A stretch of 64,000 nt of DNA. Source: Tahibacter soli (GTDB lineage: Bacteria; Pseudomonadota; Gammaproteobacteria; Xanthomonadales; Rhodanobacteraceae). Shown one piece after another: positions 9,024-57,806 of the stretch (the first letter of the stretch is position 1; every line of letters starts with the position of its first letter). Position numbers and translations under genes: made by a program. The notes under the pieces were generated by a model, which saw only the letters and a program-made list of their open reading frames with translations, had not been told where the DNA came from and ran no database searches. The stretch is taken from the NCBI RefSeq assembly GCF_025717065.2, contig NZ_JAOVZO020000020.1, forward strand, positions 806,001-870,000, read 5' to 3'.

Positions 9024-9029
9024 GTCAGC

Positions 9030-11864
9030 TCAGAACCGGTAGCGCGCGCTGACCTGGAAGCTGCGGGTCGGGCCCTTCGTGCAGAAGCCCTTGCCGTAGG
9101 TCGGCTCGTTGAAGTTCTGGTTGTAGCAGTCGTAGTTGGTGAAGTTGAAAATATTGAACGCGTCGGCGCGCACTTCGAGCGCCTGTTCCTTGCCGAACCG
9201 GAACTCCTTCGACAGCGCGAGATCGACCTGGCGGTACGCCCAGAAGTTCGGCAGGATGAAGTCGTAGCGCTTCGGATACGACCCGCCGAGGATGATGCCG
9301 CCGTTGTAGCGGTAGTCGGTCGCGAGCGGATACGGATCGCCCGAATTCAACGTGATGAGACCGGTCAGGCGCATGTCCCACGGCATCTTCACGGTACCGT
9401 TGATGACGACGTTGTGCTTGGCGCCGACGTTGTTGCCGAGGTACATCGCCGGCGTCGAGTAGTCGAGCGAATACGCGTCGCCGCCCTGCTTCTTGGCGAG
9501 CTGGAACGTCCAGTTGAGTCCGAAGCCCCAGCCCGACTCGTCGGTGTAGGGCTTTTCCAAAGTCCAGAACACGCCCTTGGACGAGTACTTCTTCGTCGAC
9601 GACAGCAGCACCGGACCGTAGCCGTTCGGCAGCGGCGCGATGAAGTCGCCGTTCTCGCGGCGATTGCCCCAGATCCACGTGAACTGCCGGTAGCCGAGCA
9701 CGCGCGAGAGCGTCACCGACGTGATCCAGTCGCCGAGCACCTGCTTGACGCCGAGGCTGAACGCGTCGCTGTACGGCGGCTTCTGCTTGTTGTTGAGCAG
9801 GTTGATCTCGCCGCTGCCGGCGTTGCCGCTCTGGATCAGTTCCTGCAGACCCGCGGCCGTGAGATAGCGCGGGTCCCACGCGACCGACGGATTGCCGTCG
9901 ACCGGTGATCCGTCGCGAGAAAAGTAGATATTGTAATACGGATACTGCGAGTGGAACGACTCCTGAATCGGATTGTCGAGCGGCGTGCGGTCGTAGTAGC
10001 GGCCGGCGCCGCCGGTGATCGTCGTCGACTGGTCGGCATCCTTGCTGACGTCCCACGAGAAGCCCAGGCGCGGCTGGTACGCGTTCTTGAAGGCTTTGCG
10101 CTCGCTGCCGGTCGAGACGTAGTCGTGCGAGATGCCGAGCAGGTCGATCACCGCGAGCTGGGCCTGCGGCGTGACGTAGCCGTTGTTGTACGCGTCCGAT
10201 TCGTAGTCCCAGCGCAGGCCGAGATTTACCTGCAGGCGCTGCGTGACGTCCCAGTCGTCCTGGATGAAGAGGCCGGTCTGCTTGTTGTCGATGTCGGCGA
10301 ACTTGCCGCTCGGCGAGTACGACGCGCGGTACGGAATCTCGTAGCCGGTCGGGAAGCGGAAGCTGTACGAGTAGCGCGGGTTCGACGTGTTGTTTTCCAG
10401 AAGTCTCAGATTGTACTTGGCGAACTTGACGCCGAACTTGACCACGTGCTCGCCGTGCCAGTCGAGCGGATCGAGCGTCACGTCGTTGCGGAACGTCGTC
10501 GATTTCTGTTCCTTGTCCTGCAGGCTCGAGCCGCCGCCGATCACGCCGGCGCCCTCGTAGTCGGACGAGACGATGTCCGACTGCGCCGGCCGCGGCGAAT
10601 ACTGGTAGTAGCCGTGGTCGATCAGCATGTCGTTGACGAAGCCGTTGCCGCGGTACTGCCACTTGAGCAGCGTGTCGTCGACCTTGTTGTCGCGGTCCTG
10701 GCGCGCGGTGTACGCGGTCGTGTTCGTCACGCCGATCACCTCGGTGTCCTTGCGGCGCGAGAACGACAGGTCGACGCTGTTGTCGTCGTTGGGCTGCCAC
10801 GACAGCTTGCCGAAGCCGACCTTCTGCTCGAACGGGATATTGAAATTGCCGTTGAACTGCGTGAAGTCGGGCGTGCCGGTGTACGCGGGATTCGTCGGGT
10901 TGCGGAACAGCACTGTCTGGTTGCCGGTCTCCTCCTTCACCTCGTAGCTGACGAAGAAGTGCAGCACGTCCTTGACGATCGGTCCGCCGAGCGTCGCGCC
11001 GTACTGCTTGCGCGAATACTCGGGTTTCTCCAGGCCGTTGTCCTCGCTGATCTTGTCGAGGGCGACCATGTCCTTGTTCTGGTAGTAGCCGTACGCGGTG
11101 CCGTGAAACTCGTTCGTGCCCGACTTCGTCACGGCGGTGATGATCGCGGTGCCGGCCTGCTCGTACTCGGCCTTGTAGTTCTGCGTCAGCACGCGGAATT
11201 CCTGCACCGCCTCCTGCGAGAACGGATTGCCGCGGCTCGAATCCTGGCCGACGAGGCCGCCCTGCAGGATGTTGTTCTTGAGGTTCGCGCCGTCGATGAA
11301 GACGTTGGTCTGGTTCGCCGGCTGGCCCGCGGCCGAGATCGTCTTGTTGTATTTCTCGTTCGACACGACCACGCCCGGCGCGAGCGCCGCGAACGCGAGA
11401 AAGTTGCGATCGCTCTGCGGCAGCGTGCGCATCTGCTGCTGCGTGATATTGGTGGCGACTTCCGACGTGCGCAGCTCGATCGGCGCGGCGGCGGTCACGT
11501 TGACCGTTTCGAGTTCGGTCGTCGGCTTGCCGGCGCCGAGATCGATCGTCAGCTGCTGACCGACGAGCACCGTCACGACGCTCGACCCGAGCGACGTTCC
11601 CCCGGCGCTCGCGCTGATCTCGTAGGTGCCCGGCCGCAGGCTGGTCAGCACATAGCGGCCGTCGGCGCCGACGGCGACGCGCGTGGTGTAGCCGGTCGAC
11701 GTCTCGCGCGCGACGACTTCGGCGCCGGTCGTCGCCGATTCGACCTTGCCGCGGATCGTCGCGTTGACGTTCTGCGCCAATGCGCCGCCCGCGGCGAACG
11801 TCGCCAAGGCCGCGGCGACGGCGGTGATGAGCAGCTTGCGAGCGCTGCGATGTAAACGTTTCAT
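9030..11864 (-). CDS. Oar-like TonB-dependent outer-membrane receptor
   Basis: 944 residues. A signal peptide ends near residue 31 (AAGGALA-QNVNA). Residues about 35-110 form a carboxypeptidase-regulatory-like beta-sandwich (ATIRGKVESATTGAEV, YVLTSLRPGTYEISA), then a plug domain (residues 120-230) and a large beta-barrel ending in the aromatic C-terminus VSARYRF typical of outer-membrane proteins. This architecture is the Oar-like receptor group that in Xanthomonadales often sits with LacI regulators and sugar enzymes, so uptake of the glucan or its oligosaccharides across the outer membrane is likely. ATG at 11864 has a strong GGGGAGGGG site on the minus strand 8 bases before it. The first codons include the rare Leu codon TTA inside a LacI-type operator-like sequence. 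Confidence 0.92.
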   Translation of the reverse strand: MKRLHRSARKLLITAVAAALATFAAGGALAQNVNATIRGKVESATTGAEVVARETSTGYTTRVAVGADGRYVLTSLRPGTYEISASAGGTSLGSSVVTVLVGQQLTIDLGAGKPTTELETVNVTAAAPIELRTSEVATNITQQQMRTLPQSDRNFLAFAALAPGVVVSNEKYNKTISAAGQPANQTNVFIDGANLKNNILQGGLVGQDSSRGNPFSQEAVQEFRVLTQNYKAEYEQAGTAIITAVTKSGTNEFHGTAYGYYQNKDMVALDKISEDNGLEKPEYSRKQYGATLGGPIVKDVLHFFVSYEVKEETGNQTVLFRNPTNPAYTGTPDFTQFNGNFNIPFEQKVGFGKLSWQPNDDNSVDLSFSRRKDTEVIGVTNTTAYTARQDRDNKVDDTLLKWQYRGNGFVNDMLIDHGYYQYSPRPAQSDIVSSDYEGAGVIGGGSSLQDKEQKSTTFRNDVTLDPLDWHGEHVVKFGVKFAKYNLRLLENNTSNPRYSYSFRFPTGYEIPYRASYSPSGKFADIDNKQTGLFIQDDWDVTQRLQVNLGLRWDYESDAYNNGYVTPQAQLAVIDLLGISHDYVSTGSERKAFKNAYQPRLGFSWDVSKDADQSTTITGGAGRYYDRTPLDNPIQESFHSQYPYYNIYFSRDGSPVDGNPSVAWDPRYLTAAGLQELIQSGNAGSGEINLLNNKQKPPYSDAFSLGVKQVLGDWITSVTLSRVLGYRQFTWIWGNRRENGDFIAPLPNGYGPVLLSSTKKYSSKGVFWTLEKPYTDESGWGFGLNWTFQLAKKQGGDAYSLDYSTPAMYLGNNVGAKHNVVINGTVKMPWDMRLTGLITLNSGDPYPLATDYRYNGGIILGGSYPKRYDFILPNFWAYRQVDLALSKEFRFGKEQALEVRADAFNIFNFTNYDCYNQNFNEPTYGKGFCTKGPTRSFQVSARYRF
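11851..11863. promoter_or_regulatory. LacI-type operator-like sequence at the receptor start codon
   Basis: TGTAAACGTTTCA, nearly the same as the palindrome ahead of the lacI gene (TGTAAACGTTTTCA) but one base shorter. It overlaps the start codon and codons 2-5 of the Oar-like receptor gene, where a TTA leucine codon and CGT arginine codon stand out from the strong GC preference around them. Binding there by the neighbouring LacI protein would block transcription elongation or initiation; the site could also be chance from an MKRL start. Confidence 0.45.
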
Positions 11865-11950
11865 TTTCTGGCCCCTCCCCAACGTGGCTGTCTGTTGCTC
11901 GGTTTTCGGTGGACGCTCCCTGCGATTCGAATGCCGCGCGACTGCGCGAA

Positions 11951-12952
11951 TCAGGCGGTGCGTGCGCAGGACTGGCGCACGATCAGGTCGCAGCCGAGCG
12001 TCTCGGCGTGCGTCTGCGCGCTGTCCGGCTGCTCGACCAAGGAAATCAGACGCGCCATCGCGCGCTCGCCGAGTTCGGCGATGCGCACGCGCACCGTCGT
12101 CAGCCCGGGCGTGACGTAGCGCGCGATCGGAATGTCGTCGAAGCCGACGACGGCGATGTCCTGCGGCACGCGCACGCCGGCTTCGTTGAGCGCGAACAGG
12201 CAGCCGAGCGCCATCGTGTCGTTCGCCGCGAAGATCGCGTCGGGCCGCTCGCGCCGGGCCTGTACGGCCTGCGCGGCGCGGTAGCCGGCGCCTTCGGTGA
12301 AGTCGCCCGCCAGCACGATTTCCGCCGCGCCGGGCAAGAGCTGCGCGAGCGCCGTGGCATAGCCGCGACGGCGCTCCTGCGCATCGAAGTTCTGTTCCGG
12401 ACCGGCGATCAGCGCGATGCGCCGAAAGCCGCGCTCGACGAGATGCCGCACCATCGCGTAGGCGCCGGCGTAGTTGTCGATGATCAGCGACGGATAGCCG
12501 TTGCCGCGCACGCGCGTGTTCATCAGCACGGCCGGCAGTCGCGTCGGCAGGTTTTCGGCGAGGAGATCGGCGTCGGCATGCGGCGACATCACGAGCAGAC
12601 CGTCGACGCGGCCCTGCAGCATGCGCAGCGCCTGCGCCGTTTCCGATGCCGAGCCGTGCGAGCTCGACACGAGCAGATGCAGGTTGTTGCGCCGGGCCGC
12701 GACGTCCATGCCGCGGATCAGTTCCGAAAAGAACTCGCCGTAGAGATCGGGCAGCACGGCGCCGATCGTCTGCGTGCGTTTCGTGATCAGGCTGCGCGCC
12801 GCGCCGTGCGGCATGTAGCGCAGTTCGCGCGCGACGCCTTCGATGCGCTCGCGCGTTTCGGGCGTGACGTTGTCGTGACCGTTGAGCGCGCGCGAGACCG
12901 ACGCGACCGAAACGCCGGCGGCGCGCGCGACATCCTTGATGGTGACGGTCAT
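11951..12952 (-). CDS. LacI-family transcriptional regulator
   Basis: 333 residues. N-terminal helix-turn-helix TIKDVARAAGVSVASVSRAL (residues 3-22) with the hinge region near RSLITKRTQTIGAVL, then a periplasmic-binding-protein-like sensor domain (VVGFDDIPIARYVTPGLTTV is the usual conserved stretch near residues 265-285). It would bind DNA as a dimer and release it when a sugar ligand is bound. It is encoded upstream of the Oar-like receptor on the same strand, 87 bases apart, and a good palindromic operator lies 41 bases before its own start, so autoregulation and control of the glucan locus are likely. Confidence 0.95.
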   Translation of the reverse strand: MTVTIKDVARAAGVSVASVSRALNGHDNVTPETRERIEGVARELRYMPHGAARSLITKRTQTIGAVLPDLYGEFFSELIRGMDVAARRNNLHLLVSSSHGSASETAQALRMLQGRVDGLLVMSPHADADLLAENLPTRLPAVLMNTRVRGNGYPSLIIDNYAGAYAMVRHLVERGFRRIALIAGPEQNFDAQERRRGYATALAQLLPGAAEIVLAGDFTEGAGYRAAQAVQARRERPDAIFAANDTMALGCLFALNEAGVRVPQDIAVVGFDDIPIARYVTPGLTTVRVRIAELGERAMARLISLVEQPDSAQTHAETLGCDLIVRQSCARTA

Positions 12953-16256: not shown

Positions 16257-18335
16257 ATGAACGGCATGGTGAGCAAACTGGGCTGGGGAGCCTTCGCGAT
16301 CTTCGGGGCGGCCTGCCTCGGCGTGGTCGCGCTGGAACGCGGCGAATCGATCAACGCGATCTGGCTGGTGTCGGCGGCGATCGCCGTGCTGACGATCGCC
16401 TATCGCTTCTACAGCCGCTACATCGCGGTGACCGCGCTCGGTCTCGACGCGAATCGCGCGACACCGGCCGTGCGCCGCAACGACGGCCTCGATTTCGTGC
16501 CGACGAACAAGTGGGTCGTCTACGGCCACCATTTCGCCGCGATCGCCGGTGCGGGTCCGCTGGTCGGTCCCGTGCTCGCCGCGCAGATGGGCTATCTGCC
16601 TGGCACTTTGTGGATTTTATTCGGCGTCGTGCTCGCCGGCGCGGTGCAGGATTTCATCATCCTGTTCTGCTCGCTGCGCCGCGACGGCCGCTCGCTCGGC
16701 GACATGATCCGCAGCGAACTGGGGCCCGTCGCCGGCGCCATCGCGATGGTCGGCATCCTGATGATCATGATCATCCTGCTCGCCGTGCTCGGCCTCGTCG
16801 TGGTCAAGGCGCTCGCCTCGACCGGCACGCAACCGGGCAGCCCGTGGGGCACGTTCACGGTCGCGATGACGATACCGATCGCGCTGTTGATGGGCCTTTA
16901 TCTGAAGTTTCTGCGCCCGGGCCGCGTGCTCGAGATGTCGATCATCGGCTTCGTGCTCTTGATGCTGTCGATCTGGCTCGGCGGCGTCGTGGCCGAAGAT
17001 CCGGTGTGGGGTCCGCGCTTCTCGTTCGACGGCAAGGCGCTCGCGTGGATGATGATCGCCTACGGCTTCGTCGCGTCGGTGATTCCGGTGTGGCTGCTGC
17101 TCGCGCCGCGCGACTATCTGTCGACGTTCCTGAAGATCGGCACGATCCTCCTGCTCGCGCTCGCGATCTTCGTCGCCGCGCCGAACCTGCAGATGCCCGC
17201 GGTGACGAAGTTCATCGACGGTTCGGGCCCGGTCTGGTCCGGCAGCCTGTTCCCGTTCCTGTTCATCACGATCGCATGCGGCGCGGTGTCGGGCTTCCAT
17301 GCGCTGATCTCGTCGGGCACCACGCCGAAGCTCGTCGCGAACGAAACCGAGGCGCGCTTCATCGGCTACGGCGGCATGCTGATGGAAGCGTTCGTCGCGA
17401 TCATGGCGCTGATCGCCGCGTGCGCGCTGCAGCCGGGCGTGTACTTCGCGATGAACGCGCCGGCGGGAATCGTCGGCACGACGGTCGAGTCGGCGGCTCA
17501 GGTGATCAGCAGCTGGGGGTTCGTGATCACGCCCGAAATGCTGACGCAGACCGCGAAGGAAATCGGCGAGCCGAGCATCCTGGGACGTGCCGGCGGCGCG
17601 CCGACGCTCGCGGTCGGCATGGCGCAGATTCTCCACGGGCTCGTCTCCGGCAACGGCATGATGGCGTTCTGGTACCACTACGCGATCCTGTTCGAAGCGC
17701 TGTTCATCCTGACGACGATCGACGCCGGCACGCGCGTCGGCCGCTTCATGATCCAGGACCTGCTCGGCACCGTGTATCCGCCGATGCGCCACACCGAATC
17801 GTGGACCGGCAACCTCGTCGCGACCGCGCTGTGCGTCGCCGGCTGGGGCTACTTCCTGTACCAGGGCGTGGTCGATCCGCTCGGCGGCGTCAACACGCTG
17901 TGGCCGCTGTTCGGCATCGCCAACCAGATGCTCGCGGCGATCGCGCTCGTGTTCGCGTGCGTCGTGCTGATCAAGATGAAGCGCGAAAAATACCTGTGGA
18001 TTCCGGCGCTGCCGACCGCGTGGCTCGTCATCTGCACGGTTACCGCGGGCTGGCAGAAACTGTTCCACGAGAACCCGAAGATCGGTTTCCTGTCGAACGC
18101 GAAGCGCTTCTCCGATTCGCTCGCGAAGGGCGAGCTGCTCGCGCCGGCCAAATCGGTCGCCGAGATGGAACGCATCGTGTTCAACCAGTACGTCGACGCG
18201 GTGTTGTGCGCGCTGTTCCTGCTGGTGGTCCTGTCGGTCGTCGTGTTCGGCCTGCTCGCGGCGCTCAAGGCGCGCCGCACCGACCAGCCGACCGCGCAGG
18301 AAACGCCGTTCGTGGCGCTGGCGCCGTCGTCATGA
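16257..18335 (+). CDS. cstA: Carbon starvation protein A, pyruvate/peptide permease
   Basis: 692-residue inner-membrane protein with about 16-18 hydrophobic spans; recognisable CstA stretches are GHHFAAIAGAGPLVGPVLAAQ (near residue 85), GCGAVSGFHALISSGTTPK and the long C-terminal hydrophilic loop. CstA/BtsT proteins take up pyruvate, and earlier work linked CstA to peptide uptake under carbon starvation. Start ATG at 16257 is used, with another ATG three codons later. It is coupled to the ybdD gene by ATGA overlap. Upstream gap holds multi-hairpin copy A. Confidence 0.95.
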   Translation: MNGMVSKLGWGAFAIFGAACLGVVALERGESINAIWLVSAAIAVLTIAYRFYSRYIAVTALGLDANRATPAVRRNDGLDFVPTNKWVVYGHHFAAIAGAGPLVGPVLAAQMGYLPGTLWILFGVVLAGAVQDFIILFCSLRRDGRSLGDMIRSELGPVAGAIAMVGILMIMIILLAVLGLVVVKALASTGTQPGSPWGTFTVAMTIPIALLMGLYLKFLRPGRVLEMSIIGFVLLMLSIWLGGVVAEDPVWGPRFSFDGKALAWMMIAYGFVASVIPVWLLLAPRDYLSTFLKIGTILLLALAIFVAAPNLQMPAVTKFIDGSGPVWSGSLFPFLFITIACGAVSGFHALISSGTTPKLVANETEARFIGYGGMLMEAFVAIMALIAACALQPGVYFAMNAPAGIVGTTVESAAQVISSWGFVITPEMLTQTAKEIGEPSILGRAGGAPTLAVGMAQILHGLVSGNGMMAFWYHYAILFEALFILTTIDAGTRVGRFMIQDLLGTVYPPMRHTESWTGNLVATALCVAGWGYFLYQGVVDPLGGVNTLWPLFGIANQMLAAIALVFACVVLIKMKREKYLWIPALPTAWLVICTVTAGWQKLFHENPKIGFLSNAKRFSDSLAKGELLAPAKSVAEMERIVFNQYVDAVLCALFLLVVLSVVVFGLLAALKARRTDQPTAQETPFVALAPSS

Positions 18336-18532
18336 GCGCGGCGGCGTCGGTGCGTTCCGCCTGGCGCTGGCTGCGCGAGCTCGGCCGCCTGATCGTCGGC
18401 GTGCCGAGCTACGAGGCGTACGTGACGCATATGCGCGCGCAGCATCCCGACGCGACGCCGATGACGTACGAGCAGTTCTTCGAAAACCGGCTCGAAGCGC
18501 GTTACGGCAAGGGCCGTTCGCGCTGCTGCTGA
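18332..18532 (+). CDS. ybdD: YbdD/YjiX family small protein
   Basis: 66 residues. The pattern GVPSYEAYVTHMRAQHPDAT followed by PMTYEQFFENRLEARYG and a C-terminal CC pair is the YbdD/YjiX (DUF466) signature; the family is nearly always encoded after cstA or yjiY and is thought to aid the transporter. Start overlaps the cstA stop by four bases. Function beyond this partnership is not known. Confidence 0.92.
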   Translation: MSAAASVRSAWRWLRELGRLIVGVPSYEAYVTHMRAQHPDATPMTYEQFFENRLEARYGKGRSRCC

Positions 18533-18538
18533 CGGAAG

Positions 18539-18568
18539 GTCGCGACGCCTCGAACGAGGCGTCGCGAC
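18539..18568. terminator. Perfect 13-bp hairpin after cstA-ybdD
   Basis: GTCGCGACGCCTC pairs with GAGGCGTCGCGAC across a GAAC tetraloop. It starts 7 bases after the ybdD stop. No T run follows, so it may end transcription weakly, or protect the 3' end of the cstA transcript. Confidence 0.6.
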
Positions 18569-18620
18569 GCTGCAACGTTGCGCGCGCACCGTACGCGTTT
18601 TCCCTGCGAACGCCGCGGCC

Positions 18621-19784
18621 ATGAACTTGTTCCTGCCCACCTGCCTTGCGATAGTCGCGACGACCGTTCTCACCGCGACGCTACCGATGGCCGATTCGCC
18701 CGCCGACGCGCACCGCCATCCCGATCCGATCGTGATCGGACATCGCGGCGCGAGCGGCTATCGGCCCGAGCACACGCTCGCGTCGTACCGGCTCGCGATC
18801 GAACAGGGCGCCGACGTCATCGAACCCGATCTCGTCGTCACGCGCGACGGCGTGCTGATCGCGCGCCACGAGAACGAGATCGGCGGCACGACCGACGTCG
18901 CGCAGCACGCCGAATTCGCTTCACGCCACACGACCAAGACGGTCGACGGCGTCGCCGTGACCGGCTGGTTCGCCGAAGACTTCACGCTCGCCGAGATCAA
19001 ATCGCTGCGTGCGCGCGAACGCCTGCCGCAACTGCGCGGCACGGCATACGACGGACAGTTCGACGTGCCTACGTTCGACGAAGTGATCGCGCTGGCGCAG
19101 GCGTCGCCGCGCAAGGTCGCGATCTATCCGGAAACCAAGCATCCGACGTACTTCGCGGTCGAAGGCCGCTATCTCGACGGCAAGCCGATCGGGCGTTCGC
19201 TCGGGCGGCTGCTGATCGACGCGCTCGTCAAGGCGAAGTTCGTCGAGCGCGAACGCGTGTACATCCAGTCGTTCGAGATCGCGAACCTCGTCGAACTCAA
19301 GCGCGAGATCATGCCGCAGGCCGGCGTCGATTTTCCGCTGATGCAGCTCATGGGCGATCTGTCGCGCAGCGGCGGCGACGCCGATTTCGCGATGCCTTAC
19401 GACCTGCGCTGGAACGCCGCGCACGGCGGCGATTTCGCGGCGCTCTATCCCGGGCTGACGTCGCGGCCCTCGCGCTATGCCGACCTTGCGTCGCCCGCAA
19501 CGCTCCGGTGGATGCGGCAGTCGTATGCGACCGGCATCGCGCCGTGGAAGGACGACCTGCTGCGCGAGGCCACGGTGCACGGCATCGTCGCGGCGGCGAA
19601 GGCGCAGGGGCTGCGCGTGCATGCGTACACGCTGCGCACCGAGACGCAGTACCGCACGCGCGGGCTGTCGTACGACGAGGAAGTGCGCGCGCTGCTCGAC
19701 GGCGGCGTGGACGGGTTCTTTACCGACAATCCGGACAAGGGTGTCGCGGCGCGGGATGCCTGGGTGAAGGGGCGCAACCCGTGA
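18621..19784 (+). CDS. glpQ: Periplasmic glycerophosphodiester phosphodiesterase
   Basis: 387 residues with a signal peptide (MNLFLPTCLAIVATTVLTAT region). IVIGHRGASGYRPEHTLASY near residue 37-56 and IEPDLVVTRDGVLIARHENE give the catalytic HRG/HD and metal-binding Glu-Asp of GlpQ. The C-terminal DGVDGFFTDNPDKGV closes the TIM barrel. It hydrolyses glycerophosphodiesters to glycerol 3-phosphate and an alcohol in the periplasm. No glpT partner is near. Followed by a CCCTCTCCC repeat cluster. Confidence 0.93.
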   Translation: MNLFLPTCLAIVATTVLTATLPMADSPADAHRHPDPIVIGHRGASGYRPEHTLASYRLAIEQGADVIEPDLVVTRDGVLIARHENEIGGTTDVAQHAEFASRHTTKTVDGVAVTGWFAEDFTLAEIKSLRARERLPQLRGTAYDGQFDVPTFDEVIALAQASPRKVAIYPETKHPTYFAVEGRYLDGKPIGRSLGRLLIDALVKAKFVERERVYIQSFEIANLVELKREIMPQAGVDFPLMQLMGDLSRSGGDADFAMPYDLRWNAAHGGDFAALYPGLTSRPSRYADLASPATLRWMRQSYATGIAPWKDDLLREATVHGIVAAAKAQGLRVHAYTLRTETQYRTRGLSYDEEVRALLDGGVDGFFTDNPDKGVAARDAWVKGRNP

Positions 19785-19792
19785 CACAAGAC

Positions 19793-19975
19793 TCCCTCTC
19801 CCCCGACAACCGTCAGGGGAGAGGGGGCGACGCTCGGCACTTCCTCGACATCGACGAAGTACGACGCGTCCTCCCCCTCACCCCAGCCCTCTCCCCCAAG
19901 CGAGCTTGGGGGAGAGGGAGCAAAGCAGAAACGAGGGACTCTCTCTCTCGCCAACGGCCGTCGGGAGAGGGAGCA
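19793..19975. repeat. CCCTCTCCC/GGGAGAGGG inverted repeat cluster, copy 1
   Basis: Between glpQ and the S9 peptidase gene, which converge here. Contains at least three hairpins whose arms are CCCTCTCCC-type and GGGAGAGGG-type, with a spacer GGCGACGCT...GACGAAG...GCGTC that recurs at 61266, 63341 and in part at 50012. Each hairpin could fold in RNA from either strand and serve as a two-way terminator. Confidence 0.75.
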
Positions 19976-19980
19976 AAGCC

Positions 19981-22098
19981 TCACTGCCCGATATGCTTCT
20001 TCAACCACGCATTGACGGTGTCATGCCACTTCACGCTGTTCTGCGGCTTGAGCACCCAGTGGTTTTCGTCGGGGAAATACAGGAACTGGCTCTCGATGCC
20101 GCGGCGCTGCAGCGCCGTGAACGCGCCCAGGCCCTGCTCCAGCGGAATGCGGAAGTCGAGGCCGCCCTGCACCACGAGCATCGGCACTTTCCACTTCGCC
20201 ACATGGTTCACCGGGTTGAACTTCTCGTAGCTCTCGGGCTTGTCGTACGGCGTGCCGCCGTGTTCCCACTCGTCGAACCACAGCTCTTCGGTCGAATAGC
20301 CCATCATGCGCGCATCGAACACGCCGTCGTGGTTGACGAGGCACTTCCACGGCTGCTGCCAGTTGCCGGCGATCCAGTTGATCATGTAGCCGCCGTACGA
20401 CGCGCCGAGCGCGCACGCGCGAGTGCCGTCGAGGAAGTCGTACTTCGCCAGCGCCGCCGTCCAGCCCTTCTGCAGGTCTTCGAGCGGCTTGCCGCCCCAG
20501 TCGCCCGAGATCGCGTCGGTGAACGCCTGACCGTAGCCGGTCGAACCGTGGAAGTTGATCGTCACCACCGCGTAGCCCTGGCCCGTGTACGTCTGCGGGT
20601 TCCAGCGGTAATGGAAATCGTCGGTCATCGCGCCCTGCGGCCCGCCGTGAATGATGAAGGCGACCGGGTACTTCTTGCCTTTTTCATAGTTCCACGGCTT
20701 GACGACGTAGCCCTGCACGCGCTCGTCGTTCGCACCCTTGAAGTCGAAGAACTCGACGTCGCCGAACGCGACGTCTTTGAGCTTGTCGGCGTTGTAGTTC
20801 GTGATCTTCCTGCCCTTGCCGCTCTTGGCGTCCGCGAGGTAGAGATCGGCCGGCGCCTTCAGCGTGTCGCGCGCGTAGACGAGCGTCTTGCCGGCGACGT
20901 CGTAACCTTCGACGTGGCCGGTGCCGACGATCGCCGCGGCCTTGCCGCTCGCGACGTCGATGCCGAACAGGCCGTGGTTGCCGTTGTCGTCGGCGGTCGC
21001 GTAAATCGTTTTTCCGTCCGGCGACAGCTTGATCGAACCGGCCGAGCGATCCCACGCCGCGTTGATCTCGCGCGTGGCGCCGGTGGCGAGATCGAGCGCC
21101 ATCACGCCGAAGCGGTCGGCCTCGAACGTCGGACGCTTCATCGCGAGGTAATACAGCGTCTTGCCGTCGTGCGACGGCACCGGATACGAGTCCCAGGCCT
21201 GATTGCCGGGCGTCAGGTTCTTCGGCGTCGCCTTGCCTTCGGTCGCGACGGAATACAGATCGAAGTTCGTCGACCACGCCTCGGTGCGGCCGGCGATGCG
21301 CGCGCCGAAGTACACGGTCTTGCCGTCGGGCGAGAACGCGTATTCGCTGTCGTCGCCGAACGGCTTGGACGGCACGTCGCCGTCGATGCCGCGCGACATC
21401 AGCGTGAGCTTGCGGTCGAGCCGGCCGTCGTCGGTCAGCGAGGCGAGGTACAGCTGGTTGCGGCGGCCGTCGGCCCACGTGTCCCAGTGGCGCACGAACA
21501 GCTGGTCGTACACCTTGCCGGTGACCTTGCTCGCCGCGGCGTCGTCGAGGCGCTTCTTCGTGCAGTCGAGATCGGCGCAGTCGGTGAACACTTCGAGCGA
21601 CAGCAGCACGTGTCTGCCGTCCGGCGACAGCTTGAAAGAGCCGATGTCGAGCGGCAGCCCTTCGCTGATCTGCACCGGCGCCTGCGGCGACGCCTCGAAC
21701 GTGGCGCTCATGACGCGCGCCTTGTCCTGCGAGGCGAGCGCCGGCGCGATGTCGACGCGCCACAGATGGCTCTGTCCGTCCTTCGCGGCGGTGTAGAACA
21801 CGCTGCGGCCGTTCGGCGCCCAGCGCGGCGTGGTGCTGCTCGCACCGGTCGCGCTGATCTTCACCGGCGTCGACTTGCCGTCGAGCTTCTGCAGCCAGAT
21901 GCCGTTGACGCCCTTGTTCGCGTCGAAGTTCGTTTCGCGCAGCTGGAACGCGACGTAGCGGCCGTCCGGCGACACCTGCGGATCGGAAACGCGGTCGAGA
22001 TTGACGAGATCGCTGGCGTTGAAGCCGCGCGTCGCGGCGTGCGCGGACGCACCGGTGGCGGCGAGCAGCGCGAGCGTCAGTGTTGCGGTCGATTTCAT
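19981..22098 (-). CDS. S9 family prolyl oligopeptidase-like peptidase (secreted)
   Basis: 705 residues: signal peptide to about residue 22, then an N-terminal beta-propeller with WD40/PD40-like repeats (DPQVSPDGRYVAFQLRE, RWAPNGRSVFYTAA, LSPDGRHVLLSL), and a C-terminal alpha/beta-hydrolase. Nucleophile motif GASYGGY (serine near 530), the acidic residue in GGLDFRIPLEQG, and the histidine in DENHWVLKP are all present. Likely cleaves dipeptides or acylated peptides in the periplasm. It is 21 bases downstream of an OPT transporter gene on the same strand, a peptide-use pair. Confidence 0.93.
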   Translation of the reverse strand: MKSTATLTLALLAATGASAHAATRGFNASDLVNLDRVSDPQVSPDGRYVAFQLRETNFDANKGVNGIWLQKLDGKSTPVKISATGASSTTPRWAPNGRSVFYTAAKDGQSHLWRVDIAPALASQDKARVMSATFEASPQAPVQISEGLPLDIGSFKLSPDGRHVLLSLEVFTDCADLDCTKKRLDDAAASKVTGKVYDQLFVRHWDTWADGRRNQLYLASLTDDGRLDRKLTLMSRGIDGDVPSKPFGDDSEYAFSPDGKTVYFGARIAGRTEAWSTNFDLYSVATEGKATPKNLTPGNQAWDSYPVPSHDGKTLYYLAMKRPTFEADRFGVMALDLATGATREINAAWDRSAGSIKLSPDGKTIYATADDNGNHGLFGIDVASGKAAAIVGTGHVEGYDVAGKTLVYARDTLKAPADLYLADAKSGKGRKITNYNADKLKDVAFGDVEFFDFKGANDERVQGYVVKPWNYEKGKKYPVAFIIHGGPQGAMTDDFHYRWNPQTYTGQGYAVVTINFHGSTGYGQAFTDAISGDWGGKPLEDLQKGWTAALAKYDFLDGTRACALGASYGGYMINWIAGNWQQPWKCLVNHDGVFDARMMGYSTEELWFDEWEHGGTPYDKPESYEKFNPVNHVAKWKVPMLVVQGGLDFRIPLEQGLGAFTALQRRGIESQFLYFPDENHWVLKPQNSVKWHDTVNAWLKKHIGQ

Positions 22099-43188: not shown

Positions 43189-43950
43189 ATGCATCATTCG
43201 ACGAAATTTCCGGCGTGGATCAATGCGATCGTCGTCGTCGCGGTACTCGGCATCGGTTTGCAGGTACGGGACATCGGCAAGGCGCTGGGCCTGCGCATAC
43301 CGGGCCTGCCGATGCCGTACGGCGGCGCGATTCTCGACAACGCGATCGCCGTCGCGCTCGCGCTGATCGCGGCGTTCGTGCTGTCGGGTCGCGGCGCGTC
43401 GCTCGTACGCGGCCTCGGACTGCATTGGCCGGGCTGGAAAGGCCCGGCGCTGACACTCGCGGCGACGCTGCCGTTCTGGATCGGCCTCGGCGCGACGAGC
43501 GCGCTGTCGACGGAAGGTTCCGCGCTGTCACTCCTGATGCTCGCCGTCGTGTTTCCGTTCGCCGAGGAAATCGTTTTCCGCGGATTCGGCTTCGTGTTCG
43601 CGCGGCGTACGCTCGGCTGGCGCATCGTGGCGGCGGTGCTGGTGCAGGCGCTCGCGTTCGGGTTCGTACACTGGTACGGCATGGGCGGCGGCAGCGGCAT
43701 CGCGCTGCAGGTGCTGGCAATCACGGCGTTCGGCGGCGTCGTATTCGCGATACTCGACGCGCTCGACGGCTATACGATCTGGAGCGGCTGGATATTTCAC
43801 GTTTCGCTCAACGCGGCCTGGAACGCGTTCGCGGTGTCGGAATCGGCGGCGACGGGCTGGTACGGCAATTCGCTGCGGATCGCGAGCGCGGCGCTGGCGG
43901 TGGGATTGTTGTGGGCGTTGCATCGGCGCCGTGCGGCGAATCGCGGTTGA
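43189..43950 (+). CDS. CPBP family intramembrane metalloprotease
   Basis: 253 residues, six or more hydrophobic spans. [21 protein letters not shown] (EExxxR motif) followed by AFGFVHWYG (FxxxH-like) and [11 protein letters not shown] gives the three conserved CAAX-protease/bacteriocin-processing (CPBP) motifs. The role may be peptide maturation or membrane protein turnover. GAGG site 8 bases before the ATG. No bacteriocin gene is next to it. Confidence 0.92.
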
Positions 43951-50011: not shown

Positions 50012-50063
50012 GCGTCGCCCCCTCACCCAACCCTCTCCCCCAAAGGCGTTTGGGGGAGAGGGC
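50012..50063. repeat. CCCTCTCCC/GGGAGAGGG inverted repeat, half copy
   Basis: CGTCGCCCCCTCACCC followed by CCCTCTCCCCCAAA-GGCG-TTTGGGGGAGAGGG. Matches the right half of the composite at 19793, 61266 and 63341. Lone half copy next to multi-hairpin copy D. Confidence 0.75.
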
Positions 50064-50268
50064 TATGCGTGGCGTGGCGCGATGTATCCGTGTTTACTTT
50101 GCAAAAAAAGCTAGAGGCCGGCCTGCGTCGGGATGACGGCTGCGTAGGACCGCCACGCTTTGGCTGTTGCCCGTGCCGTGGCCGTTGCTTCTGGCGGCAG
50201 GAAGCCGCCCGCTCTCCCCGGGGCCCCATCTGCCGCGAGCAAGTGGCCGGCGATAAGGCCCGTAAGGG

Positions 50269-50522: not shown

Positions 50523-51745
50523 GGTGGTCTCAACCGGTCATTGCAACGCCTGTGCGAGTTTAAAAGCAGGCGTTCTGAATGCCAGCGTCTCTCGTGGACG
50601 TTGGTTCAGTCGTCGCGAAATCGCGTCGAGTTGAGTCTGTGTAAAGAGCGATAAATCGGCCTTGCGCGGCAAGTATTGGCGCAATAGCCCATTGGTGTTT
50701 TCGTTGGATCCGCGTTGCCACGGACTGCGGGGATCGCAAAAGTATACCGCCATGTCGGTGGCGAGAGTGAAGCGGGCATGGGCGGTCATTTCCGCACCAC
50801 GGTCCCAAGTCAGCGAACCTCTGAGGGTTGCCGGCAAGCGCTTCATGCGACGAGCAAGGGCACGCACCACGGTCTGCGTGTCCTTGCCGGCCAGCTTGAC
50901 CAGCATCACAAAACGAGAGTGGCGCTCCACCAGGGTACCGACATAGCTGTTGTTCGCCCCGCAGATCAAATCGCCTTCCCAGTGTCCTGGTACTGCCCGA
51001 TCTTCGATCTGTGCGGGACGCTCGCTGATCGAAACCGCATCGGGAATCTGTCCTCGACCTTGCGGCACACGCTCGGCGTTGCGTGAGCGGCGCAGTTGTC
51101 GCTGTGATCGCAGATGCGTCATCAACTCCTTTTTCAGCGCGCCCCGCGCCTGAATGAACAAGGATCGGTAGATCGTCTCGTGCGACACACGCTGCTCCGG
51201 CTCATGCGGATGCTCAAGCTTAAGCCATTGGGCAATCTGGTTCGGCGACCAATCCTGTCGCAGCTTTGAGGCAACCTGATGCCGTAGTCGATGTGAGCGC
51301 GCCAGACGGCACACCTTCGGACGACGAGCCCGCTGCCACGCTCGCTCGTCGGCCAGCACCGCGCGATAACCCTGGCGTCCGCCGTGACGACCCACTTCGC
51401 GACTGATCGTGCTCGTTGGCCGGCCCAACTCGCACGCGATCTGTCGGAATGAGTCACCGGCAACAAGCCCTCGCGAAATGTGTTCGCGATCATGCAATGT
51501 CAGCGTACGGGCCGAGCGGCGCGACGCCATCGGCGCCACGCCACCGCGTGCTTTGACCAGATCCGTCACCGACGAGGCGTTGCGCGACAGTCCTCGGGCA
51601 ATCTGCCGCAACGACTCACCGGCGCGAAATCGGCGCCAAACCTCCTGTCGCTCCGCTTGACTCAAGGTGCGTGACCGCGACCTCTCCATGCCTTCTCTCC
51701 GATCGAAACAACATGCCTATGTTGCATCGACCGGTTGAGACCACC
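50523..51745. mobile_element. Complete IS30-family insertion sequence
   Basis: 1223 bases. Terminal inverted repeats of 25 bases (GGTGGTCTCAACCGGTC..TGCAAC at 50523-50547, and its reverse complement at 51721-51745) with two mismatches. One transposase gene fills the space. Outer bases read GGATCCC on the left and CCAGCTTTCG on the right, which join to GGATCCCAGCTTTCG with a 2-base CC duplication: the element has cut a mirror-arm repeat. IS30 elements duplicate 2-3 bases, which fits. Confidence 0.9.
50538..51689 (-). CDS. IS30-family transposase
   Basis: 383 residues. Two N-terminal helix-turn-helix stretches (RFRAGESLRQIARGLSRN and VAGDSFRQIACELGRPTSTI), followed by the DDE core: HWEGDLICGANN (first Asp), LTWDRGAEMTAHARF (second Asp), GSNENTNGLLRQYLPR (Glu), all intact. 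The stop codon lies inside the left terminal repeat (50538). Length is normal and no frameshift is seen, so it is probably active. Confidence 0.96.
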   Translation of the reverse strand: MERSRSRTLSQAERQEVWRRFRAGESLRQIARGLSRNASSVTDLVKARGGVAPMASRRSARTLTLHDREHISRGLVAGDSFRQIACELGRPTSTISREVGRHGGRQGYRAVLADERAWQRARRPKVCRLARSHRLRHQVASKLRQDWSPNQIAQWLKLEHPHEPEQRVSHETIYRSLFIQARGALKKELMTHLRSQRQLRRSRNAERVPQGRGQIPDAVSISERPAQIEDRAVPGHWEGDLICGANNSYVGTLVERHSRFVMLVKLAGKDTQTVVRALARRMKRLPATLRGSLTWDRGAEMTAHARFTLATDMAVYFCDPRSPWQRGSNENTNGLLRQYLPRKADLSLFTQTQLDAISRRLNQRPRETLAFRTPAFKLAQALQ

Positions 51746-52549: not shown

Positions 52550-53128
52550 GGCTGCTCCTTTTGGCGGGCGGGCGCGTCTATCGCGGCCCTGCTTCGTATG
52601 GGTCGGCCGGAACCCCGCAAGGGCGCCGGCAAGGCCTCGCATCATACCGCGACGGACCGGCTCCGCAGCCAGCCGACCGCGGCGGCCGCGCAAACGGCCA
52701 TTCGCGGACGCACGCCGCCCGGACCGTCGCAGCCCGGGCGGCGAGAATGGCGGCCGGCGGTCTCAAATCGTGAGATGCAGCCACGTCGAAATCGCGGCTG
52801 CCGGAAGCCGGCGCGGAATACGGCGGCATGGCGCCGGACCGGAAACTGCAGCGGCGGACGATGCAGGGCGCCGCGCCGGCCGCAGGGCGCTGCGACCGGC
52901 GCGACTGCCTGCCGGTCCCGTCAACCGTCAGGCACTCCAAAAGGAGCCGCACGACCGTAACACCGCGCGTCCGGGGACGGGATTGGCGAATCGGCGAACG
53001 AGGGCGAACGGCACGATCGTGTGGAGGAAAGTACGATTCGGCGTGCGTATCGACATACGCGACCGTTGCGTCGCATCGGGAGGGTCGGTTCGAGTATCGT
53101 CGGCGCGATCCCGCGACGCGTCGAACGC
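52550..53128. other. 579-base gap between divergent ssb and S41 peptidase genes
   Basis: Several open frames exist on both strands because of the high GC content, but none has a ribosome site together with recognisable protein character. Arginine/alanine-rich translations are the usual antisense noise. It should hold the promoters for both genes; no clear -35/-10 pair was picked. A hairpin GCCGGAAGCCGGC is near 52799. Confidence 0.55.
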
Positions 53129-54952
53129 ATGACCCCGTATCGCTGCGAAAAACCTCGTCGACGGCGGTACGCGCTGCTTTTCGCCGCGGCTACGCTCGCT
53201 CTGCTGCAAGGCTGTGCGACAGTCTCGACGACGGCAGATCGCGCCCCCGCGCGCAACGTCGCCGCGTTCGCGAAACTCTACGGCGTCGTGCGCTATTTCT
53301 ACCCCGGCGACGCGGCCCGGACGATCGACTGGGAGCGCTTCGCCGTCGCCGGCGTTGCGCAGGCGAGTGCGTCGAAATCGTCCGACGAACTCCTGCGAGC
53401 GCTGCGTACGTTGTTCGCACCCATCGCTCCTCACGTACAGATTCTCGCGATCGAAGACGCGTTCGCGGACGGCACTCCCGATCGCGGCGAACAACGTGTC
53501 GCGTGGCTGCACCGCGGACTCGGCGTGGACGTCTACCGCCAGCCTGAAGCCACCTATCTGAGCCTGCGCATCGGCCGCGCGCCACCGGACGACGCGGCGG
53601 CGCAGGCTCGCGACCTGATCGAACGGTTCCCGCAAGCCGTCGCCGCCGCGACGCAACCCGATCGCGTTGCCGCGTTCGAGCTGGGTGAGGGACTCAAGGC
53701 ACGCGTGCCGTTGTCGCTGTCCGCCACCGAGGCGGCAACACCAGAAGACGCCGAGGCCGTCGACGCGTTGCGCGAGCGGCTGCGAGCGACGGATCTCGAC
53801 GCTTCGCTGACGGCCGTACGAGCCGCCGATGTCGTGGTCATCTGGAACGTATTGCGGCACTTCTATCCGTACTGGCAAGAAACCCGCGTCGACTGGGACG
53901 CGGTCCTGGAACCGGCCATCGCCGAAGCCTTCACCGATGGCGAGCGCGCAGCGCACAAGAAGACACTCAAACGACTCGTCGCACGGATCGTCGACGGACA
54001 CGGCCAGGTCGACGACACCGTGCTGCGCGGCCGGCGACGCTGGCTGCCGATCGGCGTTGCGCCGGCCGGCGGCGACTTCGTCGTCAATGCAAGCGGGATT
54101 CCCGAGCGTGTCGCCGTCGGCGACGTGGTGAGGCGTATCGACGGCATCGATGCGCACCGCTGGTTCGCCGACACGCGAGCGCAGATTTCCGGCTCCGCGC
54201 AATGGAAAGCATGGATGGCCGCCGACACGTTCGCGACGGGCGAGGAGAACGCGAGCGTGACGCTGCAACTCGACGGCGTGCACGGCGAGCATGAAGTCGT
54301 TCTCGCCTTCGACCGTCCCTCGCCGGCCGCGGAAAAGCGACCGCCCCCGATCGCCGAAATCGCGTCCGGCGTCTGGTATGTCGATCTCGAACGCGCATCG
54401 ATGTCCGACGTAACCCCGAAGCTGACCGCTCTGGCGCAGGCGAAGGCGACGATTTTCGACCTGCGCGGCTATCCGACGGATGCGGGGTTCGGTGTATTGC
54501 CTCATCTGATCGACGCGCCGGAGCGCGACCGCTGGATGCGGACGCCGATCCGCATTGCGCCGTACGACGAACCGGTCGCGTTCGAGCGATACGGCTGGGA
54601 TCTCGACCCGAAACCGCCGCATTTCGCCGGCAGGCGCTACGTATTGCAGGACGGCCGCGCCTTGAGCTACGCCGAATCGGTGCTCGGTTATTTCACCGAC
54701 CTCAAGCTTGCGACGACCATCGGCGCCGCCAGCGCCGGCGCCAATGGCAATGTAAACATGTTCACCACACCCGGCGGATTCACCGTTCGATTCACGGGCA
54801 TGCGGGTAACGTGGCACGATGGCATCGGCAGTCTGCACGGCATCGGTATCGCGCCGGACATCGCGGTCGAGCAAACGGCACAGGCATGGCGTGAAGGTCG
54901 AGACCTTGCGCTCGAGCGCGCATTGGCGCTGGCTGCGCGTGAGGGACGCTGA
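53129..54952 (+). CDS. S41 family peptidase lipoprotein
   Basis: 607 residues. A basic N-terminus (KPRRRRYALLF) and lipobox LLQGC (Cys 29) predict a lipoprotein. N-terminal helical part, a PDZ-like middle (residues 305-400; VNASGIPERVAVGDVVRRID) and a tail-specific-protease-like C-terminal domain: DLRGYPTDAG, LQDGRALSYAESVLGYF (Ser nucleophile) and GAASAGANGNVNMFTTPGG. Cleaves C-terminal regions or tricorn-like peptides. Ends 13 bases before the convergent RiPP-like gene. ATG at 53129 is used because the upstream in-frame ATG at 53021 has no signal peptide before it. Confidence 0.88.
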   Translation: MTPYRCEKPRRRRYALLFAAATLALLQGCATVSTTADRAPARNVAAFAKLYGVVRYFYPGDAARTIDWERFAVAGVAQASASKSSDELLRALRTLFAPIAPHVQILAIEDAFADGTPDRGEQRVAWLHRGLGVDVYRQPEATYLSLRIGRAPPDDAAAQARDLIERFPQAVAAATQPDRVAAFELGEGLKARVPLSLSATEAATPEDAEAVDALRERLRATDLDASLTAVRAADVVVIWNVLRHFYPYWQETRVDWDAVLEPAIAEAFTDGERAAHKKTLKRLVARIVDGHGQVDDTVLRGRRRWLPIGVAPAGGDFVVNASGIPERVAVGDVVRRIDGIDAHRWFADTRAQISGSAQWKAWMAADTFATGEENASVTLQLDGVHGEHEVVLAFDRPSPAAEKRPPPIAEIASGVWYVDLERASMSDVTPKLTALAQAKATIFDLRGYPTDAGFGVLPHLIDAPERDRWMRTPIRIAPYDEPVAFERYGWDLDPKPPHFAGRRYVLQDGRALSYAESVLGYFTDLKLATTIGAASAGANGNVNMFTTPGGFTVRFTGMRVTWHDGIGSLHGIGIAPDIAVEQTAQAWREGRDLALERALALAAREGR

Positions 54953-54965
54953 TACGTTGCCGAAC

Positions 54966-55259
54966 TCAAGGCGTCGTTGTCGCCGTTCCCGTCGTGTCGG
55001 TGAGCGTAGGGCAGCCGGTTGTCCACGCGCAACGCTCGCTCGGCCTGCATCGAACGGTTTCGCCGGCACAGCGATTCGTCGGGAAATTACACGCCTCCGA
55101 ACCTGGGTTGCATCGCCTCGTAACGCAAGTAAAGAAATCTCCCGGGTTCGCCGACTGGCAGCCGACACTGGCGCCGCCAACCTGTGCCGCTTCCGGCGAA
55201 GTCAATTCTCTGAGTACCGACTTATCAAGAACGATCTTCTTCCCTCGCAGCTTCGACAT
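54966..55259 (-). CDS. Orphan RiPP-like precursor: cysteine-rich peptide with lanthipeptide-type leader
   Basis: 97 residues. The leader KKIVLDKSVLRELTSPEAAQ ends in VGG (residues 27-29), which matches the L-x-K-x-x-L-R-x-L ... V-x-GG pattern of class I lanthipeptide-type leaders cut after GG. The core has eight cysteines (34, 45, 50, 57, 64, 71, 77, 83), the last five spaced 7, 7, 6, 6, with a threonine-rich tail TDTTGTATTTP. A GGAGG site 8 bases ahead fixes the start at 55259. No LanB/LanC, LanM, radical SAM, YcaO or peptidase-exporter gene is in the window. Convergent with the S41 peptidase gene. Surrounding 55275-55394 is AT-richer than average. A RiPP is likely; the modification type is open. 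Confidence 0.68.
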   Translation of the reverse strand: MSKLRGKKIVLDKSVLRELTSPEAAQVGGASVGCQSANPGDFFTCVTRRCNPGSEACNFPTNRCAGETVRCRPSERCAWTTGCPTLTDTTGTATTTP

Positions 55260-55394
55260 GACACGACCCTCCATTGACCTTCTTCGATCGTGCAGAAGAT
55301 CGATCGTGGAGCGCCACTGCGCTGTCCACCCAAATTACCTATTGCTACAAATATTTTCCGTGGATCCTGGTACGCACGCTTGAGTTTGACAGCG

Positions 55395-57806
55395 TCAATC
55401 GAACCGATACCGCACCCGCCCGTAGTAGTACGCGCCGTTGAGCCCGATCGGCGAAATCACGTCATACGGAAAATTGCCCGCGTAGCTGATGTCCGGAATC
55501 GAGCGGTCCGGATACTGGTCGGTGAGGTTGTAGCCGCCGAGCGCGAGCGACAGCGACGGCGTCAGGCGGCGTTCGACTTCGGCGTCGAGCTGCCACTTCG
55601 CCGCGTACGTCTGGCGCGGTTCGAAACCGCCGCCGAAGTTGAACACGCGCGTCGTCGAGCCCTGTCGCGTCACGCGGCCGAGCAGCGAGAAGTCCTCGCC
55701 GTCCCACTTCGTCGTGACGAACGCGCGCTGCCGCGGCGCCGCGTCGGTCAGCGTGTTGCGCTCCTCGACGCCGAACAGCACGTTGTCGGCGCCGAGTTCG
55801 GTCAGCTCGCGCGGCGTCGGCCTCACTTTGCGGATCTTCGTGTCGGCATAGCTGTACGCGCCGGTCGCCGTGAACGTGCCGCCCGCGAGCGGCGCGCGCC
55901 AGTTCGTCACGAGTTCGGCGCCGCGCGTGCGCGTGTCGACCGCGTTCGTGAAGAAGCTCGCGCTCTGCACGCCCGCCACGCCGAAGCGCTGCTCGATGAA
56001 CGCTTCGAGCGCATCGCCCGTGATGCGTTCGGACAACGTCACGCGATCGTCGACGTCGATGCGGAACAGGTCGAGCGACACGTCGAATGCGTCGGTGACC
56101 TGCGCCGTGAATCCGAAACTGACGTTCGTCGACTTCTCCGCATCGAGCGGTTTCGCGCCGAGCGCACGCGCGATCGGGTTGTTGACCGACAGCAGGCGCC
56201 CTGTCGTCAGCACGCCGTCGGCGCCGTAGCCCGTCGTCGTCGATTCGAAGCCGACCTGCGACAGCGACGGCGCGCGGAAGCTGTTCGATACCGCGCCGCG
56301 GAACGCGTAGCCCGGCGCGAACTCCCAGCGCGCACTGGCCTTGCCGGTCAGCTCGCCGCCGAAGTCGTCGTAGTGTTCGTAGCGCGCGGCGACGTCGACG
56401 AACACCTGCGCGCCGAGGTTGCCGGCGAAGTCCGCATACGCGCCGAACACGTCGCGCGCGAGATCGGCCGCGTCCTGCGGCGTCAGCCCGCCGCCGGCCT
56501 GCGCGCCGGTCGGCGCGCCGATCACCGGACCGACCGCGTACGACGCCGGGTCGCCGGGCTGCGTCTCGAACGATTCGCGGCGCGCCTCGCCGCCGAGCGC
56601 CAATGTGAAACTGTTGCCGATTCCACGAATGAAATCGAGATTCGCGAGCGTCTGCCGGTTGCCGTATTCGCCGACCTTGAACCGCGTGGGGCTCGCCGCG
56701 CCGAGCGACACGTTGAGCGAGTTGCGCAGGCGATACTCGAAATCGTTGCGGCCGTGCGTGAGGCTCGCGTCGACGTCCCATTCGCCCGCGCGCCCGCGCA
56801 CGCCGCCGGTCGCCGAAAGATCGCGGTTGCTGCCGAGCGAATCGGGCCGATAGCCGTTCGGGTAGATCGCCGGTACGTTCGCGCTCGAGTCGGGATAGCG
56901 AAAATAGTTCGCGCCGATCGAGTGCCGCGCGTTGAGCGTCGCGAACGCGTAGCCGGTCCACGCCGGCGAGAACGGCACTTCGGCGTTGATCCACGCGTTG
57001 TAGTTTTCGGTTTCCGGATCGCCGGCGCGGTAGTTGCGTTTGCCGCGCAGCGCGACGTTTTCCGGCGAGTCGTTTTCCCACGGCGGCAGTTCGTCGTAGC
57101 CGGCGCGATGGGTCGCGGCGCGGCGGTCGAGTTCGACGCCGAAGCGCGCGAAGCCGCCGTCGCCGAGCTTCGTGCCGAACTTCGCGCTCGCGAACGCGCC
57201 CTGCCCGTCGGTCAGCGTGTCGCCGGTCGGATCGAAATCGGTGTGGTACGCGCCGTAGTTCGCGGTCACTTCGCCGCCGTGGTCGGCGTCGTCGAGAATG
57301 ATGTTGATCACGCCGGCGATCGCGTCCGAGCCGTACTGCGCACCGGCGCCGTCGCGCAGCACTTCGATGCGCTTGATCGCGCTGATCGGTATCGAATTGA
57401 AATCGACCGGCGTCGTGCCCTTGCCGATCTTGGTATCGGTGTTGACGAGCGCGGTGGTGTGGCGGCGCTTGCCGTTGACGAGTACGAGCACCTGGTCGGG
57501 GCTCATGCCGCGCAGTTGCGCCGCGCGCACGTGGTCCGAGCCGCCGGAATTGGACTGGCGCGGAAAGTTGAACGACGGCAGCAGCACGGCCAGCGCCTGG
57601 CCGAGTTCGCCGTTGATCGCGCCGGCGGCGCGCAGATCGTCGGCCGTGAGCACGTCGACCGGCACCGGCGAATCGAGCACTGTGCGGTCTTTCGCGCGCG
57701 TGCCGGTGACGATGACCTGGTCGAGCGTCGACTCGGGCGTGTCGGCGGCGAAGGCCGGCGCGGCGAGAGATGCGGCAATGGCCGCGGCAAGCGAAAAGCG
57801 GTGCAT
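55395..57806 (-). CDS. TonB-dependent receptor
   Basis: 803 residues: signal peptide to about residue 21, plug with TLDQVIVTGTRAKDRTVLDS, then MSPDQVLVLVNGKRRHTTAL and RIEVLRDGAGAQYGSDAIAG (the usual plug motifs), and a beta-barrel ending in YYYGRVRYRF. No TonB box is certain. Transports an unknown ligand into the periplasm. Neighbour genes do not name the ligand. Confidence 0.93.
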   Translation of the reverse strand: MHRFSLAAAIAASLAAPAFAADTPESTLDQVIVTGTRAKDRTVLDSPVPVDVLTADDLRAAGAINGELGQALAVLLPSFNFPRQSNSGGSDHVRAAQLRGMSPDQVLVLVNGKRRHTTALVNTDTKIGKGTTPVDFNSIPISAIKRIEVLRDGAGAQYGSDAIAGVINIILDDADHGGEVTANYGAYHTDFDPTGDTLTDGQGAFASAKFGTKLGDGGFARFGVELDRRAATHRAGYDELPPWENDSPENVALRGKRNYRAGDPETENYNAWINAEVPFSPAWTGYAFATLNARHSIGANYFRYPDSSANVPAIYPNGYRPDSLGSNRDLSATGGVRGRAGEWDVDASLTHGRNDFEYRLRNSLNVSLGAASPTRFKVGEYGNRQTLANLDFIRGIGNSFTLALGGEARRESFETQPGDPASYAVGPVIGAPTGAQAGGGLTPQDAADLARDVFGAYADFAGNLGAQVFVDVAARYEHYDDFGGELTGKASARWEFAPGYAFRGAVSNSFRAPSLSQVGFESTTTGYGADGVLTTGRLLSVNNPIARALGAKPLDAEKSTNVSFGFTAQVTDAFDVSLDLFRIDVDDRVTLSERITGDALEAFIEQRFGVAGVQSASFFTNAVDTRTRGAELVTNWRAPLAGGTFTATGAYSYADTKIRKVRPTPRELTELGADNVLFGVEERNTLTDAAPRQRAFVTTKWDGEDFSLLGRVTRQGSTTRVFNFGGGFEPRQTYAAKWQLDAEVERRLTPSLSLALGGYNLTDQYPDRSIPDISYAGNFPYDVISPIGLNGAYYYGRVRYRFD

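Follow-up and report, generated by a model that had tools for sequence, protein, structure and literature searches.

The DNA analyzed here (hereafter the window) is a stretch of 64,000 nucleotides, C20:806001-870000 of a source assembly of 6.65 Mb in 23 contigs. It carries a gene for a small cysteine-rich peptide whose leader resembles those of lanthipeptides, and there is no gene for a modification enzyme beside it. The question that this locus raises is, then, what machinery could mature such a peptide, and whether the peptide is as isolated as it appears.

The peptide gene and its flanks

The gene is located at 54966-55259 on the minus strand (the first-pass annotation had given no strand), its stop codon being at 54966-54968, and the 97-residue product with a VGG leader and an eight-cysteine core previously described was confirmed. 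The leader (residues 1-29; 55173-55259, minus strand) is IVLDKSVLRELTSPEAAQVGG, which follows the pattern I-x-L-x-K-x-x-L-R-x-L ... VGG with the VGG at residues 27-29, and presumably serves for recognition by LanB and for C39 cleavage after GG. The core (residues 30-97; 54969-55172, minus strand) comprises 68 residues, of which 8 are Cys, 14 Thr and 4 Ser (18 Ser/Thr in all), and has a Thr-rich tail. The Cys-to-Cys steps in it are 11, 5, 7, 7, 7, 6 and 6; the regular spacing of 5-7 residues that had been reported holds for all steps but the first one, which is 11. A ribosome-binding site, GGAGGG, is present at 55267-55272 (minus strand), 7 nt before the ATG.

Upstream of the gene and on the same strand there is a TonB-receptor gene, and from the stop codon of the latter to the start of the peptide runs an AT-richer stretch of 135 bp (55260-55394, minus strand), with 51.9% GC vs 67.4% for the whole window; only 0.4% of the 135-bp windows are as low in GC. 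Neither a sigma-70-like promoter nor a terminator-like site was found in 54700-55700 and, given the upstream gene on the same strand, read-through from the TonB-receptor gene is therefore possible. The GC3 of the peptide gene is also low, 0.65 vs 0.78-0.92 in the 12 related precursors presented below, and because of this the gene could be a newcomer or could be decaying. The composition is compatible with the separate history that had been proposed for the AT-richer stretch.

On the other side, an S41 peptidase gene (53021-54952, plus strand), whose family match spans only residues 532-616, converges on the peptide gene end to end with 13 bases between them, as the first-pass annotation had stated. 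A transposase gene with HTH_38 and rve domains, presumably IS30-like, is found at 50538-51689 (minus strand; 61.3% GC), 3.3 kb from the peptide, and it is a possible mobile context of the segment formed by the S41 and peptide genes. The reported lack of modification genes nearby was also borne out: PF04738 and LANC_like had no match inside the window, and none of the 14 window proteins scanned with Pfam is a RiPP enzyme (YcaO, radical SAM and C39 were covered in these 14 proteins only).

A leader shared by 13 precursors at four sites

When the peptide was compared with its own genome, it matched itself and, more weakly, eight further places on C15, C17, C19, C20 and C23 (E 9e-4 to 2.9). On C19, C20 and C23 the weaker matches turned out to be small ORFs whose leaders resemble MKKIxLSKETLRVLTAQExxxVAGG. 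When six 20-kb stretches and the window were scanned for the motif, 13 precursors were counted: seven at C20:704.6-716.8 kb on both sides of the enzyme genes described below, three at C23:14.2-15.1 kb, a pair at C19:50.0-50.5 kb and, isolated at its own site, the window peptide. These make four sites on three contigs. A genome-wide search with a leader model, in which the window peptide was included, returned the same 13 precursors, with E between 3.8e-17 and 3.2e-12; the three matches that follow them have E 2.7-9.0. With a leader HMM made from the 12 other precursors, the window peptide was the sole significant match among 1,092 six-frame segments of the window (E 3.5e-7; next 4.2), and its score of 26.4 bits is to be compared with a maximum of 8.9 in 20,000 shuffles.

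These values bear on the idea that the ORF exists by chance in GC-rich DNA and that the real gene is on the opposite strand. Plus-strand ORFs of 152 and 129 codons do overlap the peptide gene, whose codon composition is atypical, but a leader that is found in this way, together with the well-placed GGAGGG, makes such an origin very improbable.

The DNA comparison showed that the starts of the precursor genes resemble one another across the cluster, C23 and C19. The window peptide is the most distant member of the set. Its leader scores the lowest of the 13 with the genome-wide model, has a mean identity of 0.50 with the other 12 (vs 0.69 of these among themselves) and bears five extra N-terminal residues with respect to its paralogs; it retains eight of the nine columns invariant in the 12 paralogs, the remaining one being an invariant Thr replaced by Val. 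At the DNA level, the 10 kb around the window peptide shared with the other precursor loci only two elements, a repeat at ~50012-50064 and, within the TonB gene, a single match of 36 bp. This repeat, of ~53 bp and with many copies, is common to the window and to an array at L010 ~2668-3404, between the exporter and HlyD genes.

The search of RiPP leader family models that had been recommended gave nothing for the window peptide itself, which had zero matches in Pfam and NCBIfam even at E<=10. The model NF038153, named 'class I lanthipeptide', was matched at E<=1 by 11 of the 13 precursors, the window peptide being without a match. At E<=0.1 there were seven matches in the genome, again without the window peptide, and three of these seven were above the curated cut-off (lant_leader_L1a, 22 bits), which three paralogs pass and the window peptide does not.

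The sequences show that the 13 precursors have a common leader and divergent cores, and that they are placed at four genomic sites. The lanthipeptide-like leader claimed for the window peptide is accordingly supported by 12 paralogous precursors in the same genome, and the label 'orphan' that had been given to it applies by location only. It could still be asked whether the gene is a relic or a captured precursor, now unexpressed or no longer recognized by the resident LanB. Its having the most divergent leader, the low GC3, the AT-rich flank, the IS30-like transposase 3.3 kb off and a neighboring S41 gene without a close same-genus relative would all agree with this. We consider it unlikely, since the ORF is intact, the ribosome-binding site is well placed, eight of the nine invariant leader positions and the VGG have been retained, and the core is rich in Cys and Thr like those of the other precursors.

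The distant class I enzymes as candidate partners

The class I enzyme genes are located on the window's own contig, between the two groups of precursors at C20, where PF04738 plus PF14028 and PF05147 gave matches at C20:709.7-714.3 kb. By arithmetic, the window peptide is 144 kb away from the nearest precursor of the cluster and 148 kb away from LanB. As scanned in the stretch L010, and all on the minus strand, the genes encode LanC (7936-9309; LANC_like, with WCYG and CHG motifs), LanB (4676-7933; Lant_dehydr_N and Lant_dehydr_C), HlyD (3414-4670; Pfam) and a C39-peptidase ABC exporter (502-2646; Peptidase_C39 with 4.9e-35, and ABC); an outer-membrane partner gene does not appear in this cluster as scanned. 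LanB is similar to the solved chains 9g04 and 5ehk and to NisB, and LanC to 8byk and NisC. In the whole genome PF04738 had one match, which is this LanB, and LANC_like had two, one being this LanC and the other a LanM, the only one found, at C23:300.6 kb. Hence, the search of the genome for LanB and LanC that had been advised found both, ~145 kb away on the same contig, and the distant modifying enzyme that had been proposed has a candidate in a single LanB/LanC/HlyD/C39-ABC cluster.

The LanM is a class II enzyme (DUF4135 and LANC_like; L173:7526-10357, minus strand) that adjoins a DUF6229 precursor (L173:10429-10620, minus strand); a radical SAM gene lies near it, at L173:3864-5750. On sequence context only, LanM was set aside as modifier of the window peptide, as its neighbor precursor belongs to DUF6229 and has a different leader, and the kin of the window leader flank LanB/LanC. 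For Lysobacter, PMC11451712 reports lanthipeptide clusters of classes II and III in 24 genomes, and class II lanthipeptides with DUF6229. The present genome likewise has a LanM with a DUF6229 precursor; leader and enzyme class differ from those of the window peptide, and that system is not a likely partner.

The ORF, the common leader, the enzyme cluster, the single LanB and the dispersal of the precursors can be read directly in the DNA. In our opinion there is a good probability that the window gene is a class I lanthipeptide precursor, one of 13, that acts in trans with the distant cluster. The only LanB of the genome would recognize its leader and dehydrate Ser/Thr residues of the core; the eight Cys would be joined into thioether rings by the LanC of that cluster, and cleavage behind VGG and secretion would fall to the C39-peptidase ABC exporter and its partner HlyD. 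The genome has both LanB and LanC, the leader is homologous to those of the cluster precursors, and the 68 core residues include 18 Ser/Thr as well as 8 Cys, as expected for a class I LanA; moreover, the leader ends in GG and there is a C39-ABC exporter in the genome, as for a double-glycine/C39 substrate. The VGG site agrees with the C39 exporter encoded next to the cluster precursors; export by another exporter is possible. That the window peptide is expressed, recognized by this LanB, closed into rings and exported is an inference, and it would probably be an extracellular bioactive peptide.

The surroundings of the other precursors allow two further readings to be weighed. The pair of precursors on C19 sits between a purL-like gene and two genes of DsbC-type disulfide isomerases (L012:10674-11387 and 11512-12309, minus strand), and the three precursors on C23 are beside genes of an outer-membrane efflux protein and an AcrB-type pump (L011:15241-15906 and 17872-19998, minus strand). 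The DsbC-type genes beside C19 and the eight Cys of the window peptide would suit a double-glycine-leader peptide that is exported by C39 and matured by disulfides instead of LanB/LanC, an alternative close to the disulfide-rich peptide suggested previously. This is rather improbable: the leader is of the type of the precursors that flank LanB/LanC, the core contains 18 Ser/Thr against 8 Cys, and the two neighbors of the window gene are the S41 and TonB-receptor genes and not DsbC.

The other reading, also raised in the first-pass annotation, assigns the processing of the precursor to the neighboring S41 peptidase or to a CPBP protease. The S41 gene is only 13 bases off, and a CPBP/Rce1-like protease is indeed encoded in the window (43189-43950, Pfam). 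However, the two adjacent genes are convergent and do not form an operon, and a Pfam scan of 22 proteins encoded near the other 12 precursors revealed no S41 peptidase. In the seven other genomes of the same genus, the S41 protein had matches of only 27-32% identity in six and none in one. We found no link between the protease at 43189-43950 and the peptide, and an exporter suited to GG sites is present in the distant cluster. Processing by either of these proteases is thus extremely improbable, and a precursor served by the distant LanB/LanC cluster continues to be our preferred explanation.

Known systems resemble this one in part. For class I precursors of Bacteroidetes, Walker et al. 2020 (PMC7268733) describe a leader LxLxKx5L that in many of them ends in GG, and clusters that often include a C39 protease. 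The precursors of this kind gathered in NF038153 lant_leader_L1a are like the window precursor in the motif I-x-L-x-K-x5-L (with Ile for the first Leu) ending in GG, in the Ser/Thr/Cys core and in the presence of LanB, LanC and C39-ABC in the genome. They differ in that they were reported from Bacteroidetes and looked for at no more than seven genes from LanC, whereas the window precursor is separated from the enzymes by ~145 kb, belongs to a genome with 67% GC and does not itself match the family model. The window gene also shares with prochlorosins, one-LanM, many-precursor systems (class II) covered in PMC10783134 and PMC12328550 and mentioned in PMC7268733, the use of one synthetase for many precursors of related leaders and variable cores, many of them far from the enzyme. 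Prochlorosins involve a LanM, Nif11-type leaders and cyanobacteria, while the present system pairs LanB with LanC, has a short leader of the L1a type and counts 13 precursors. Precursors with a shared leader dispersed from one enzyme are found here (13 on three contigs, one LanB); modification by one promiscuous LanM is not indicated by the sequence context.

A comparison with nisin is also of interest. Its enzymes NisB and NisC are homologs of LanB and LanC, but the window leader is without FNLD, and a C39 exporter and HlyD are encoded in the cluster, while nisin is cut by NisP.

We regard as about equally likely to be right or wrong the broader proposal of a class I counterpart of prochlorosins, in which one LanB/LanC/C39 machine would modify and export at least 13 unlike cores by means of a common leader, from four sites and including the compositionally foreign, perhaps horizontally captured, window peptide. 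Among the titles and abstract openings listed, none described a class I LanB with genome-dispersed precursors, the condition being known for class II (prochlorosins). If the proposal is true, substrates dispersed in the genome are also within the reach of class I lanthipeptide enzymes, and this single LanB would be a naturally tested class I enzyme of many substrates, useful for learning leader requirements. Mining limited to the neighborhood would then miss such precursors. In PMC7268733, precursors were sought within seven genes of LanC, a limit by which prochlorosin precursors far from LanM were missed, and some nisin-like class I precursors were noted at more than seven genes from lanC.

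Distribution in other genomes

Among eight genomes of the same genus, the peptide, LanB and the leader had matches in the own genome only, the other seven being without them. In the family (233 genomes), LanB matched in seven (six above the cut-off) and the leader in three; both were found together in the own genome and in G182, which belongs to another genus and has the LanB-type and leader genes side by side on one 12-kb contig. The order there is HlyD, C39-ABC, precursor, an ORF without family match, LanC, the N part of the dehydratase, an unmatched ORF and the C part of the dehydratase. The G182 precursor has the leader KKLTLSKETLAILTDEETKMVGG and 8 Cys. As to the conservation in relatives that had been proposed as a check, a leader of this type with eight Cys was seen in another genus but not in the seven other same-genus genomes, and an orthologue of the window peptide was not found. 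In the G182 contig (L049:7640-12035, plus strand) the N and C domains of the dehydratase are in separate frames with the unmatched ORF between them; this LanB may therefore be a split protein, or an assembly error may have interrupted it. G104 presented a partial leader match (E 0.0046) and no LanB match.

In 369 genomes drawn from the class, the leader model had two matches, the own genome and one in G369 that was judged to be chance, as it falls inside a 650-aa frame; LanB also had two, the own genome and G520 at 33%. A contig scan with LanB alone as query gave zero relatives, and one with a six-LanB alignment gave at least 531, the best 80 of which were kept; the top one is from Myxococcus, at 39% identity. 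Leader matches at E<=0.1 were present in 4 of these best 80 loci. NF038153 was compared with 44 genomes (the own one, those of G182 and G520, and the genomes that carry 41 of the best 80 LanB loci): 20 were matched at E<=0.1, 17 above the cut-off, G520 was unmatched, and in a few of the 44 the matches are on more than one contig. In plasmids, LanB matched 77 records, each at <60% identity; the protein P0002 had zero matches in plasmids and one in phages (E 0.2). Near a LanB cluster of G209 (L051:478-864, plus strand) there is a peptide whose GG leader is of another type and in whose core eight Cys follow one another at steps of exactly 5 residues, and then at wider ones.
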